Notes under the pieces: generated by a model
Seen by the model: the letters and a program-made list of their open reading frames with translations, nothing else
What the model was told of the DNA's origin: nothing
The model's database searches: none
Program-made: the position numbers and the translations under genes
Part shown: in pieces, positions 25,127-29,590 of the stretch
How positions within the stretch are numbered: the first letter of the stretch is position 1
Layout: each line of letters starts with the position of its first letter
NCBI GenBank assembly: GCA_030537075.1
Contig: JAUNOS010000003.1
Location: 1 to 64,000, forward strand
DNA: 64,000 nt
Origin: Candidatus Saccharimonadota bacterium
GTDB taxonomy: Bacteria > Patescibacteriota > Saccharimonadia > Saccharimonadales > Saccharimonadaceae
Direction of reading: 5' to 3'

Positions 25127-26266
25127 ATGCAGGACCAAGTGACGCAACGACCAAGGCAGCGCCGTAGCAGGGCCATTCTGCGAGCAGTGGTGTTTTTCAT
25201 CTCGCTCAGCATCATGATGATTGGAGCTGGTGCGGTCGGTGCCTACTTGATGTCGCTCACCTCGCGTTCAACGCAGCCGCCGTTGCTTACTCCTGCGACT
25301 GACGGGAATAAGTTGATTACCTCTGAGGAGCAGGCTATCGACAACGTAGTACACTCGGTCTCAAAAAGTGTCGTCTCTATCATTACGACGGGCGGCGGGC
25401 AGCAGGGCGCTGGAACGGGGATTATCATCAGTCAGGATGGCTATATTTTAACGAATAAGCATGTTGTGAGTGGCGCTCGCGCTATCGAGGTGATAGCCAG
25501 CGATGGCACGCGCTATGATGATGTGGTGCCGGTGGGCGAGGATCCGCTTAACGATATCGCGTTTGTGAAGATTCGAAAAGCGCGCGACCTTCCTGCGGCT
25601 ACGCTCGGTGACTCGGGAACGACTCGTGTCGGGCAGAGAGTTATCGCTATCGGTAACTCACTTGGCCAGTACCAGAATACGGTGACCAGTGGCATCATCT
25701 CTGGAAAGGGGCGCCCTATTCAGGCGGCGCTCGATGAAGACGGTAGTGCGGTAGAGAGCCTATCTGACCTCATTCAGACAGACGCCGCTATCAACCACGG
25801 CAATTCTGGCGGTCCGCTTATCAATATGTCAGGCCAGGTTATCGGTATCAATACCGCCATCGTTTCAGGTGCACAAAGTATCGGATTTGCCATCCCTATC
25901 AATGCCGCAAAGGGGTTGGTACGTGGGGTGCTCGCCTCTGGTGAAATCAAGAAATCATACATCGGAGTGAGCTACTTGGCCATTACGCCGGACGTCAAAT
26001 CAGAATATAATTTGAAGGTAAATAGTGGCGCTTATATCGGTGGCGCTGGTTCTCGGCCTGTCGTGGCGCGTGGCGGACCTGCAGAGAAGGCGGGGATTGT
26101 CAAAGGGGATATTATCACCAAGGTGAATGATAAAACGGTCGGCGACCACGGTGGTCTCGGGAGTCTCTTGGCGGAATTTTTGCCTGGAGAGACAGTGAAG
26201 CTAACGCTGCTTCGCGATGGCCGTGAGATGGTGGTGGAGCTAACGCTCGGCCGCTACCAGTCGTAA
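25127..26266 (+). CDS. htrA: HtrA-family serine protease with PDZ domain
   Basis: This 379-residue membrane-anchored trypsin-like protease performs envelope protein quality control. The anchor is at about 20-43. The catalytic triad is visible: His112 (ILTNKHVVSG), Asp143 (DPLNDIAFVKI) and Ser227 (NHGNSGGPL). One PDZ domain covers the last hundred residues (GGPAEKAGIVKGDIITKVND). The 3' end overlaps the convergent prmC by 27 bases. Confidence 0.92.
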   Translation: MQDQVTQRPRQRRSRAILRAVVFFISLSIMMIGAGAVGAYLMSLTSRSTQPPLLTPATDGNKLITSEEQAIDNVVHSVSKSVVSIITTGGGQQGAGTGIIISQDGYILTNKHVVSGARAIEVIASDGTRYDDVVPVGEDPLNDIAFVKIRKARDLPAATLGDSGTTRVGQRVIAIGNSLGQYQNTVTSGIISGKGRPIQAALDEDGSAVESLSDLIQTDAAINHGNSGGPLINMSGQVIGINTAIVSGAQSIGFAIPINAAKGLVRGVLASGEIKKSYIGVSYLAITPDVKSEYNLKVNSGAYIGGAGSRPVVARGGPAEKAGIVKGDIITKVNDKTVGDHGGLGSLLAEFLPGETVKLTLLRDGREMVVELTLGRYQS

Positions 26267-27064
26267 TGCGACGATAAAGCCTTGTGTCGCTTCATGGGTA
26301 AATCCGCGCGTCTGTGCATGCTGTATGATGGCCTCGTGCTGCTGAGGATCGGCTTCAAGGAGCATAAGGCCGCCTGTCGCGAGGTGGTGAGGCGCTTGGT
26401 CGATGAGGCGGTTGATGAGGGCAAGTCCCCGCTCGGGTGCATACAGTGCTGCATATGGCTCGTGTCTGAGCTCTGGCGAGGTCTCCCAGGCTGGGTCGAC
26501 ATACGGCAGGTTCGCGATGATATAATCAAGCGGCTCGATGTGCCCCGTCAGCAATGACTGCTCCTCCAGCGTCACATTAACGCCGAGTTGTTCGGCATTT
26601 TTTGCGGCAATTTTCAGGGCGTCAGCACTCACATCGGCCAGGATAACGCGCCATTCGGGCCGCTCGCACTTGGCGGTGATCCCGAGGCAGCCAGAGCCCG
26701 TCCCGACGTCTATCAGTGTCTTTGGGGTAATCTCCTCGGCAGTGAGCGTTAGGAGGAGCGTGATCATATCCTCCGACTCAGGACGTGGCACCAGGACGCT
26801 CGGCGTCACTGTAAAACGCCATCCGTAAAACTCCTTGTAGCCCAGGATATAGGCTAGTGGCACGCGGTCCAGCCGCAGGTCCAGCCGCGCCTCAGCGATA
26901 TCCAGCCGCCGCGGGTCGATCGGTTCATCCAGGTGGGCGTGCAGGTAGGTGCGTTCACGGCGCAGAGTGTTTGCCAGTAGCAGCTCGGCGTCCAGCCGCG
27001 CCGACGCGATGCCGATGTCTTTCAGTCGCTTGGTCGCTTGGATAAGCCAGGCGGAAATATTCAT
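26240..27064 (-). CDS. prmC: Release factor glutamine methyltransferase
   Basis: This 274-residue SAM-dependent enzyme methylates the GGQ glutamine of release factors. The N-terminal helical domain includes ARLDAELLLANTL and the SAM-binding motif I is LIDVGTGSGCLGI. The catalytic tetrapeptide reads NLPY (IIANLPYVDP) where the family normally has NPPY. The start at 27064 is 7 bases after TATAAT (27077-27072), so the message is probably leaderless. Both substrates, RF1 (27.8 kb) and RF2 (60.6 kb), are in this window. Confidence 0.9.
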   Translation of the reverse strand: MNISAWLIQATKRLKDIGIASARLDAELLLANTLRRERTYLHAHLDEPIDPRRLDIAEARLDLRLDRVPLAYILGYKEFYGWRFTVTPSVLVPRPESEDMITLLLTLTAEEITPKTLIDVGTGSGCLGITAKCERPEWRVILADVSADALKIAAKNAEQLGVNVTLEEQSLLTGHIEPLDYIIANLPYVDPAWETSPELRHEPYAALYAPERGLALINRLIDQAPHHLATGGLMLLEADPQQHEAIIQHAQTRGFTHEATQGFIVALRLVAAER

Positions 27065-27141
27065 GTTGTTAATTATACTACGAAAAGGCGAAGGAGTAAA
27101 GTGGTAATGCTTGTAAAATTTGGAAAATATGGCAAAAAGTA

Positions 27142-27170
27142 TTGACAAATCAAGAGAGAGAGAGTAATAT
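27142..27170 (+). promoter_or_regulatory. Consensus promoter, copy 2 of a duplicated cassette
   Basis: TTGACA (27142-27147), 17-base GA-rich spacer, TAATAT (27165-27170). It differs from 795-823 at one base. The -10 ends 8 bases before the ATG at 27179, so this copy should give a leaderless message. Confidence 0.8.
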
Positions 27171-27178
27171 GAGTATTC

Positions 27179-27769
27179 ATGGACAAGCACTCGACAGATG
27201 TCATAAGAATAGACGACTACGAATACGGTACTCCCTTGAAAGATATTGCGCGACAGTATGGACTAGATGAATTTGCCTCTTCTGGCGAGGACTGGAGAGG
27301 GGATGCTATCCACGGTCTATTGAAGATGCGGCAATTCAATCTTGGCAGACTGGGGGTTCTGCTTGCAACAGGCACTGATCGCGATGAGACGAGTGATAGT
27401 AAGCGCTATAATGGTCTATACGATGCAGAAATACGTCTCACGCAAGAAGATGCTCGGCGAACTAACACGCGGCTAGACCGGTATACCTATGCGGATACAC
27501 TTTGGCTTGATAGCCCCGGGAATACTGCGTTATATACCCTCCATGATACCGTAGCCATCTATCGATACGACTCGATGACCGAGCTGTATGGCGACAATAT
27601 CAATGGATTACACCGCTTTGACATAGACCCGCGGGAGGCGCTAGTGGCAGTGATCAGAGGGAGTGAAGATCTTGCTATTCATGAGGCGCAGCTCAAGAAA
27701 AATCACCCCGGAGTCGCGTCAGGATCTGTCAATGTGGCTAATTTACGCGGCCAGAAGCGCACTTGTTGA
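27179..27769 (+). CDS. Uncharacterised soluble protein
   Basis: This 196-residue protein is rich in Asp, Arg and Tyr, without membrane segments or signal peptide. Visible stretches such as GTPLKDIARQYGLDEFASS near the start could be a helix-turn-helix-like helix pair, but this is weak. I do not recognise the family. It is driven by the same promoter cassette as the RyR-like gene at 868, which suggests coordinated expression or recruitment together. It lies between prmC (divergent) and prfA (convergent). Confidence 0.55.
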   Translation: MDKHSTDVIRIDDYEYGTPLKDIARQYGLDEFASSGEDWRGDAIHGLLKMRQFNLGRLGVLLATGTDRDETSDSKRYNGLYDAEIRLTQEDARRTNTRLDRYTYADTLWLDSPGNTALYTLHDTVAIYRYDSMTELYGDNINGLHRFDIDPREALVAVIRGSEDLAIHEAQLKKNHPGVASGSVNVANLRGQKRTC

Positions 27770-27774
27770 TGCTT

Positions 27775-28845
27775 CTATAAGTTGGCGTTCTGCGCCTTCA
27801 GCTCCCGTTCGAACTTCTGTAGCTGCTCGATGAGGTCGCTGATATCCCCGTCCATCGCGGCGGGGATGTTGCTGCGGCTGTATTTGATGCGGTGGTCGGT
27901 GATGCGGTCTTGCGGGAAATTATAAGTGCGGATTTTCTCTGACCGGTCGCCCGAACCGATGAGACCGCGCCGCTCGGCACTCAACTTGGCATTCTCTTCG
28001 TCAATCTTCATCTGCAGCAGACGAGAACGCAGCACGCTCAATGCCTTTTCCTTATTTTTAATCTGTGACTTTTCATCTTGGTTTTGCACTACTAGTCCGG
28101 TCGGCAGGTGGGTGATACGCACCGCCGAGTCGGTGGTGTTAACGCTCTGGCCGCCATGGCCGCCGGCGCGGTAGACGTCGACGCGCAGGTCATTCGCGTT
28201 AATCTCAATGTCTGCTTCTTCCGCCTCTGGTAGTACCGCTACGGTGACGGTGCTGGTGTGGACGCGGCCCTGGCTTTCAGTGACAGGGATGCGCTGTACG
28301 CGGTGGACGCCAGACTCGAATTTGAGCTGCGCGTACGGTGCGTCGCCCTTGACGCCGAACACTACTTCTTTGTAGCCGCCAGAGTCATTGGCTGATTCGC
28401 TGATCAGTTCGGTTTTGTAGCCGTTTGCTTCGCACCAGCGCAGGTACATGCGGTACAGTTCCGCTGCGAACAAGCTGGCTTCGTCGCCACCCGCACCGGC
28501 GCGGATTTCCATGATGATATTTTTCTCATCGTTTGGGTCCTTTGGCGTGAGGAGGATGAACAACTCTTCCTCTAGCTCCCCCAGGCGGGCCTCGGTTTCG
28601 GTAATCTCTGCCTTGGCTAGTTCTGCCAGCTCATCGCCGCCCGTCGCCAGCTCACGCGCCTCGACGAGGTTTTGCTCCAATGTTTGGCGCTCCTCGGCCT
28701 TCGCGATGAGGGTCTCTAGCTCAGTAAAGCGCTTATTTTTGGTCATAAAATCAGGCGCATTATACGCATCAGGGCGCGCCAAAAACGCCCCCAGCTCAGC
28801 ATGCTCGGTCTTCAGTGCGGTGATATCAAGAGAAATTTTGGTCAT
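27775..28845 (-). CDS. prfA: Peptide chain release factor 1
   Basis: This 356-residue factor reads UAA and UAG. The GGQ loop is [16 protein letters not shown]; the recognition motif PxT appears as [14 protein letters not shown]. The N-terminal coiled region is standard in length. TATAAT (28859-28854) ends 8 bases before the ATG, with no Shine-Dalgarno, so a leaderless message is expected. It stands apart from its modifying enzyme prmC by one unrelated gene. Confidence 0.95.
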
Positions 28846-28885
28846 ACCGCTTTATTATAGCACGAACAGGCAGAGGTGCGGACAG

Positions 28886-28931
28886 ATTGTATGAAAATTG
28901 TATTGACAAACGAATACAATTTCTATACAAT
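28886..28931 (+). promoter_or_regulatory. Toxin-antitoxin operator: four half-sites in a nested palindrome over the promoter
   Basis: Half-sites ATTGTAT at 28886-28892 and 28897-28903, then ATACAAT at 28914-28920 and 28925-28931. Members of each pair start 11 bases apart and the whole array is symmetric about 28908.5. The promoter lies inside: TTGACA 28903-28908, 17-base spacer, TACAAT 28926-28931. Binding of RHH dimers to this array would block the polymerase. Confidence 0.8.
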
Positions 28932-28938
28932 GAAGCAC

Positions 28939-29217
28939 ATGAGAACACAAACGTTTAATATTTCGTTTCCGCGGGAGCTGGTTGAGCAAATCGACATGAT
29001 TGCGAAGCGTCAGTTTGGTAGTCGGAGTGATTTTCTGCGTACCGCAGCACTTGATTATATTCGGCGGGAGCGGTTATGGGAGTATGTGTTAGATGAGGGA
29101 AGGCGCATCGGGGCGGATGCTGAGCAGCTCTCAGAGGAAGCAGTGGCTCAGCTGGTTGTGCAGCGGCGACGAGCCGCGCGGCGAGTGGCGGGACCAGTCA
29201 GTTGTCCTGGACAGTAA
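28939..29217 (+). CDS. Ribbon-helix-helix antitoxin
   Basis: This 92-residue protein has a CopG/ParD-like RHH domain: strand RTQTFNISFP, helix RELVEQIDMIAKRQF, turn GSRSDFLRTAALDYI. The C-terminal tail is Arg- and Ala-rich and presumably contacts the toxin. The ATG at 28939 is chosen over upstream in-frame ATGs because it lies 7 bases past the -10 box; upstream ones fall inside the promoter. The nested operator implies autorepression. It overlaps the PIN toxin frame. Confidence 0.85.
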   Translation: MRTQTFNISFPRELVEQIDMIAKRQFGSRSDFLRTAALDYIRRERLWEYVLDEGRRIGADAEQLSEEAVAQLVVQRRRAARRVAGPVSCPGQ

Positions 29218-29590
29218 TGTCTGGCTGAGCGGGCTGCTCTTTGGTGGGCAAGCGGCGCGGGTACTGCAGCTGGCGCGCGCTCATGCACGACTGCTCAGTT
29301 GCGATGCCATCACGCACGAAGTGCTGTGGCATGTTAGGCGCCTGGCACCGAAAACACCGCGCCGGTTTTTAGTGGCGCTCGAGCATGGCCTGAGTGAGTT
29401 GGCGCTTCCTGTACGGACTGGTCGGTCGGTTGCGGTGCGCGATCTGAAGGATGAACCGATTATCCAGTTGGCGCTAGAATATCATGCGATTATCATCACG
29501 GGAGATCAGGATATTCTGACCTGCCCGGATGTGACGGCGCTTACGACGGCCGAGGGTGTTGAATTGTTTATGAGTGCGAAGGATGATTAA
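29156..29590 (+). CDS. PIN-domain toxin
   Basis: A PIN-family ribonuclease of about 145 residues. Conserved acidic positions are visible in VVLDSNVWLSGLLFGG, CDAITHEVL, DLKDEPIIQLALEY and IITGDQDIL, the last resembling the TIGR00305 type of PIN toxins. The start is uncertain: the frame has no ATG or GTG near the domain boundary. A TTG at 29156 is proposed, overlapping the antitoxin by about 60 bases; an ATG at 29093 would overlap much more. The overlap implies translational coupling. The likely activity is RNA cleavage when the antitoxin is lost. Confidence 0.78.
   Translation: MCSGDEPRGEWRDQSVVLDSNVWLSGLLFGGQAARVLQLARAHARLLSCDAITHEVLWHVRRLAPKTPRRFLVALEHGLSELALPVRTGRSVAVRDLKDEPIIQLALEYHAIIITGDQDILTCPDVTALTTAEGVELFMSAKDD

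Follow-up and report, generated by a model that had tools for sequence, protein, structure and literature searches.

Two nearly identical promoters that lie 26 kb apart in a Saccharibacteria genome belong to a small family of sigma-70-type promoters that is almost certainly real and under selection. Its members hold fixed places in the genome, and we are highly confident that the genes found behind them (here called cargo) differ.

The window, that is, the whole stretch of DNA analysed, comprises bases 1–64000 of contig C4 from a genome (G000) of 810,516 bp in 5 contigs. G000 forms one genus together with G001, G002, G003, G004 and G008; G118 represents another genus of the same family. The names of the flanking genes are our assignments from established knowledge, presumably correct for recJ, rpsU, prmC and prfA. 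The features of the two loci are as follows:

7–672, + strand: 3′ part of recJ, left flank of locus 1, conserved in 116 of 121 relatives
700–725, + strand: terminator-like hairpin behind recJ, parting recJ from the cargo unit (consensus match; a comparable hairpin was seen by eye in G008)
795–823, + strand: promoter copy 1 (recJ/rpsU locus), with −35 TTGACA, a 17-bp spacer of AATC and GA tract, AATCGAGAGAGAGAGAG, and −10 TAATAT
805–817, + strand: GA tract of copy 1, GAGAGAGAGAGAG
824–867, + strand: leader of copy 1, GAGTCCATAACATAAATTTGCTAAAAAGCAAGAA..., almost identical in an alignment with G008
868–1731, + strand: cargo gene 1, 287 aa, acidic, no family match, native-like codon usage
1820–2035, + strand: rpsU (ribosomal protein S21), right flank of locus 1, found by tblastn in 20 relatives
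26240–27064, − strand: prmC (release-factor methyltransferase), left flank of locus 2
27110–27141, + strand: AT-rich upstream element of copy 2, TTGTAAAATTTGGAAAATATGGCAAAAAGTA, of a type common to other copies in the genus
27142–27170, + strand: promoter copy 2 (prmC/prfA locus), with TTGACA, a 17-bp spacer, AATCAAGAGAGAGAGAG, and TAATAT
27153–27164, + strand: GA tract of copy 2, AGAGAGAGAGAG; G002 and G001 have one unit more
27179–27769, + strand: cargo gene 2, 196 aa, best-scoring frame, weak codon usage
27775–28845, − strand: prfA (release factor 1), right flank of locus 2

Two copies of one promoter

The two copies (795–823 and 27142–27170) differ at a single position in 29 bp and each is followed by GAGT, exactly as an earlier note on this DNA had described them. 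Both score 10/12 against the −35 and −10 hexamers at a spacing of 17 bp, within the 16–18 bp range of the sigma-70 criterion; the hexamer TAATAT itself matches the TATAAT consensus at 4/6 positions. TTGACA-N16-18-TAATAT occurs twice in the window against 0.02 occurrences expected from dinucleotide shuffling, and none of the shuffles reached two. Their spacers have 16 of 17 bases in common; among the window's promoter-like sites with 17-bp spacers, the next best pair has 7 of 17. GA or AG runs of at least four units number only three in the 64 kb, and two of the three are the spacers of copies 1 and 2.

The genes behind the two copies (868–1731 and 27179–27769) have no detectable similarity to each other, in agreement with the earlier note, which had also taken both for orphans. 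This is strictly true of the second gene, for which no relatives were found anywhere searched; the first does have relatives. Residues 72–198 of its product are similar to proteins of five other Saccharibacteria, with 62% identity in G011 and weaker similarity in four more genomes. A likeness of the same protein to RyR-type domains, noticed by eye, found no Pfam support. The start codon of cargo gene 2 lies 8 nt behind the −10 hexamer, so that its transcript is probably leaderless; the leader of copy 1 contains a small TTGCT/AGCAA hairpin (identified by eye, without folding). No Rfam match was found in the window. A reading of GAGAG-TAAT-ATGAGT as a leader peptide or ribosome site was rejected: copy 1 would yield just M-S-P-stop, and the other copies are without the ATG.

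About 33 bp are common to the window pair, and each copy has orthologues at the locus where it lies. Both carry GAG(T) behind the −10 hexamer (795–827 and 27142–27174), where the other copies of the group mostly have AGG. That copies 26 kb apart have GAGT in common suggests a short gene conversion or a parallel change. No repeats of at least 12 bp (terminal inverted, terminal direct or target duplication) were found around either unit, which speaks against an insertion sequence, transposon or other mobile element.

Beside locus 2, at 28876–29587, a Ribbon-helix-helix/HicB-like antitoxin-type gene overlaps a PIN-domain gene: a probable toxin-antitoxin pair.

Extent and anatomy of the promoter family

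The promoter is not a peculiarity of two genes, as had been supposed. With both hexamers fixed, the two window sites are the only tract-bearing sites in the genome; with the −10 hexamer left free, the search for further copies that the earlier note had proposed returned a third exact copy of TTGACAAATCAAGAGAGAGAGAG (the −35 hexamer plus GA tract), outside the window at C1:187335-187357. It has a 19-bp spacer and TATTAT, lies between genes that we read as coaE and polA, and stands ahead of an unrelated gene, whose 304-aa product has a hydrophobic N-terminus and a weak lipobox. ATGTCAAATCCAGAGAG at C1:208184 is probably not a fourth copy, being without a −10 hexamer, and an initial search pattern that combined TATAAT with a short GA run gave no match. 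The GA promoter is rare in its own genome, and not the common feature that the earlier note had allowed for.

Among 394 genomes of the window's family, the pattern TTGACAAATCN(AG)6 with at most three mismatches occurs at 33 sites in 16 genomes (3 sites for a reversed-pattern control), a figure that includes non-promoters, namely three coding repeats in G429 and a few sites without a −10 hexamer. We read 26 sites in detail, all in Saccharibacteria of this family. Their core is TTGACAAATCRAG(AG)n-TA[TA]T[AT]T-AGG, with −10 forms TATTAT and TAATAT, and the order of parts is constant: a near-constant TTGACA, AAATCR or a variant of it, the GA tract, TA[TA]T[AT]T or a near variant, and mostly AGG. 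In all 26 the tract joins TTGACAAAnn directly to TANNNT, and a simple repeat lies between −35 and −10. The −35 hexamer and tract served as the search pattern and the reading script demanded a TA-initial hexamer, so that their conservation is partly selected; not selected for are the final T of the hexamer (26 of 26), the AGG and the nearby start codons. An open reading frame of at least 50 aa begins within 126 nt of the promoter at 25 of the 26 sites. In the window's genus and in G118 there is in addition an A-rich upstream stretch, typically TTGCAAAA, followed by GGNAAAA immediately before the −35 hexamer. The earlier note had regarded the identity of the two spacers as unusual, and the family bears this out: the spacer is conserved far beyond what is seen in ordinary promoters.

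Spacer length varies by whole GA units between fixed ends: 17 bp at 15 sites, 19 bp at eight and 15 bp at three, the last class being under-counted because a shorter spacer costs mismatches in the search pattern. The 15- and 19-bp members fall outside the 16–18 bp sigma-70 spacing criterion. One further site, at a contig edge in G029, has a spacer that reads as 23 bp.

Spread throughout the phylum was rejected: across Patescibacteria the pattern occurs in only 5 of 380 genomes, and three of these five are doubtful. A relaxed scan of all prokaryotes returned similar, perhaps related GA-spacer TTGACA/TAATAT sites before open reading frames at L018 3089 (a MAG), L021 7025 (Microgenomates) and L023 7109- (Doudnabacteria); its further matches we take as chance, and a single match on a viral contig lies inside a coding region and is without a good −10. 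It is such scattered promoter-like sites in unrelated bacteria that would favour a mere coincidence of low-complexity sequence, with GA repeats that happen to fall near TTGACA. For the family itself this explanation is barely credible, being excluded by the shuffles, by the reversed-pattern controls and by conservation at orthologous loci.

Fixed loci and changing cargo

Relatives carry each window copy, conserved, at the corresponding locus; the copies are not unrelated there, the other outcome that the earlier note had considered. Three loci anchor the family: two species have the promoter at recJ/rpsU, three at prmC/prfA (where a fourth has a probable relic) and two at rpsT. At recJ/rpsU, G008 has the same promoter site (L100 6452-, 28 of 29 bases kept) and the same leader, but a gene of 222 aa; between its product and the 287-aa protein of G000 there is at most a very remote similarity (one comparison gave a BLASTP E of 0.006). 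The corresponding gap in G002 is empty and 47 bp long. At prmC/prfA the promoter is also present in G002 and G001, and the three cargo proteins (196 aa in G000, 178 aa in G002 and 198 aa in G001) have no detectable similarity to one another. In G008 a 116-bp gap retains a recognisable upstream part and a seemingly decayed promoter (the probable relic), and G003 has another gene with an ordinary promoter. At rpsT the neighbours are common to G008 and G118, and the promoter drives a 281-aa lipoprotein-like gene from a 15-bp spacer in the former and a 144-aa gene from a 17-bp spacer in the latter. Furthermore, the closest relative of cargo gene 1, in G011, has no GA promoter. Since unlike genes occupy the same locus, and since this relative is without the promoter, the promoter goes with place and lineage rather than with the gene. 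Unlike cargo at one locus may reflect replacement or, in some cases, divergence beyond recognition.

The base that follows AATC is specific to the locus: G at recJ/rpsU (G000 and G008) and A at prmC/prfA (G000, G001 and G002). Because this distinguishing base is common to orthologues, the window copies must have sat separately at their loci since before the species split. The earlier note had suggested a duplicated or mobile promoter cassette; for the window pair a recent duplication is consequently not supported, and the units are without terminal repeats. A duplicated cassette does suit G127. In that genome two sites (L155 and L156) agree almost base for base through promoter, leader and 26 initial codons (MSASEKMSPWGSQKK...), after which the encoded proteins are unrelated; the spacers are 17 and 19 bp, exactly one GA unit apart, and the common stretch contains hardly any point mutations. 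This pair is a duplicated cassette with a change in length.

The recJ/rpsU and prmC/prfA gaps are also enlarged in many relatives that are without the GA promoter (L068/L102 of G003, L034-L063), and look like general landing spots. In G118 (L094 6471-10456) a reverse transcriptase gene, broken at a G-run, lies directly upstream of the GA promoter unit near rpsT and adjoins a possible target protein of a diversity-generating retroelement.

It is conceivable that a strong constitutive promoter has simply been copied around and inherited: the GA spacer would be a passive passenger, kept alike by recent ancestry and by gene conversion, and cargo would turn over in intergenic spots that tolerate insertion. 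The duplicate cassettes of G127 and the extra DNA in the recJ/rpsU and prmC/prfA gaps of relatives without the promoter fit this account, as does the presence of TAATATGAGT in both window copies, which suggests conversion. We nonetheless think it improbable, for the spacer, normally free to vary, has been kept across genera while flanks and leaders diverged; passenger tracts, moreover, should decay, and only 1 of 26 is interrupted (in a search that favours intact tracts).

Of the products encoded at the 25 sites with a nearby reading frame, three are lipoprotein-like (two with canonical lipoboxes, one with a weaker one), one more is secreted-like and one is pilin-like; neither of the window's two cargo proteins has an export signal. 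Searches of Pfam, PHROGs, NCBIfam, PADLOC, PDB, and phage, plasmid and viral sequences returned nothing usable on cargo function, and single-sequence AlphaFold models of the two proteins (mean pLDDT 42 and 34) were too poor for a structure search. The cargo is lineage-specific and plausibly used at the cell surface or towards a host.

The GA tract as a possible switch, and known parallels

Sigma-70 promoters work near their optimum with 17 bp between the hexamers and weakly with 15 or 19 bp. At one and the same locus, repeat number differs by whole units between species (one genome per species was compared): spacers are 17, 19 and 19 bp at prmC/prfA in G000, G002 and G001, and 15 and 17 bp at rpsT in G008 and G118. 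Such whole-unit steps at fixed spots suggest a putative genetic on/off switch, and it is from the spacing dependence of sigma-70 that we infer switching. The earlier note had offered a binding site inside the GA tract; a tract whose ends are fixed and whose length changes by whole units rather suggests slippage.

The mechanism would work as follows. The GA tract would be a slippage-prone dinucleotide repeat between −35 and −10. With 17 bp between the hexamers RNA polymerase would fire well, and the gain or loss of one unit would leave it with poor spacing; slippage during replication would therefore toggle the accessory gene on or off in part of the population. New cargo would enter by recombination in the common promoter and leader, or in the housekeeping flanks. 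That the tract thus serves transcriptional phase variation of accessory genes is a proposal to which we give slightly less than an even chance. Several observations count against it. The tracts are short (5–7 units); copy 1 is interrupted in G008 (GAGATAGAGAGAG) and keeps its 17 bp all the same; and the 19-bp spacers at 8 of 26 sites could mean that the promoter works at 19 bp with help. Conservation also extends to the AATC block and the A-rich upstream element, further than slippage alone would call for. The main caution comes from Haemophilus, in which dinucleotide tracts of five units are mostly constant in length between strains and do not behave as switches (PMC2651432).

The conservation of AATC, GA tract, AGG and A-rich upstream element across genera is what one would expect if a transcription factor bound the AATC block and GA tract as its operator, or if these were part of what a special sigma factor recognises, and the sites made up a conventional accessory regulon, with the differences in length as tolerated drift. 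Within a single genome, copies at separate loci have remained similar although their flanks diverge, and TAATATGAGT stands in both G000 window copies in place of the AGG found elsewhere, as co-evolution with one factor might give. Against this, the GA tract is without dyad symmetry, shifts of 2 bp turn the AATC block by about one fifth of a helical turn relative to the −10 hexamer, no candidate regulator is linked to the sites, and nothing that the cargo genes have in common would mark them as a regulon. We regard such a regulon as rather unlikely.

For switching by slippage there appears to be a precedent within the window's bacterial family. In G429 (L160 = C10:96000-104000, − strand; L133) a (CT)7-17 tract immediately follows the conserved start, ATGAAAAAGCGTG, of each of six paralogues that resemble type IV pilins. 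Only one of the six, with 17 units, has this start in frame with the pilin, and by eye some of the paralogues have LamG-like C-terminal parts. The arrangement has the appearance of phase variation of Saccharibacteria pilins at the level of translation, that is, dinucleotide-repeat switching by frameshift, and we count these tracts as a same-family precedent for switching by the GA tract.

Taken further, the data raise the possibility, which we hold tentatively and as somewhat doubtful, that the loci are scattered phase-variable expression sites: a fixed GA-repeat platform, switched by slippage, on which unrelated lipoproteins, pilin-like proteins and cytosolic orphans are exchanged between species. 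If true, this would explain how epibionts with genomes of ∼0.8 Mb vary accessory proteins against different hosts or phages, and would point to host-interaction candidates among unannotated orphan genes. We found no description of repeat-driven phase variation in Saccharibacteria or Patescibacteria in the open-access papers searched.

Promoters of the MerR type have 19-bp spacers, as do some GA sites, but most GA sites have 17 bp; a MerR-type spacer was rejected, there being no palindrome in the GA spacer. Mobile promoters, or horizontal regulatory transfer, leave a promoter sequence common to unrelated genes that outlives the gene behind it. Here, in contrast, it is the cargo that changes while the promoter keeps its locus, and there is no sign of a promoter-moving element; literature searches on this subject returned general papers only. 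In Mycoplasma hyorhinis the vlp promoters contain a homopolymer tract and drive clustered, variable lipoprotein paralogues with a common promoter and N-terminal region and unlike downstream parts. The G127 cassettes resemble these in repeat tract, common promoter and N-terminal region, and unlike downstream sequence; the present family differs in its GA repeat, scattered loci and unrelated cargo. The hifA/hifB promoter of Haemophilus influenzae contains (TA)9-11, whose repeat number has been proposed to alter the spacing of −35 and −10 (PMC2651432). It is like the GA family in tying a dinucleotide tract to this spacing, in its whole-unit changes and in driving surface genes (PMC2651432); it differs in that here the repeat is GA and not TA, has 5–7 rather than 9–11 units and lies in one-way promoters of many unrelated genes for which switching is proposed. 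On this comparison the Haemophilus hif promoter is, in our assessment, the closest described case.
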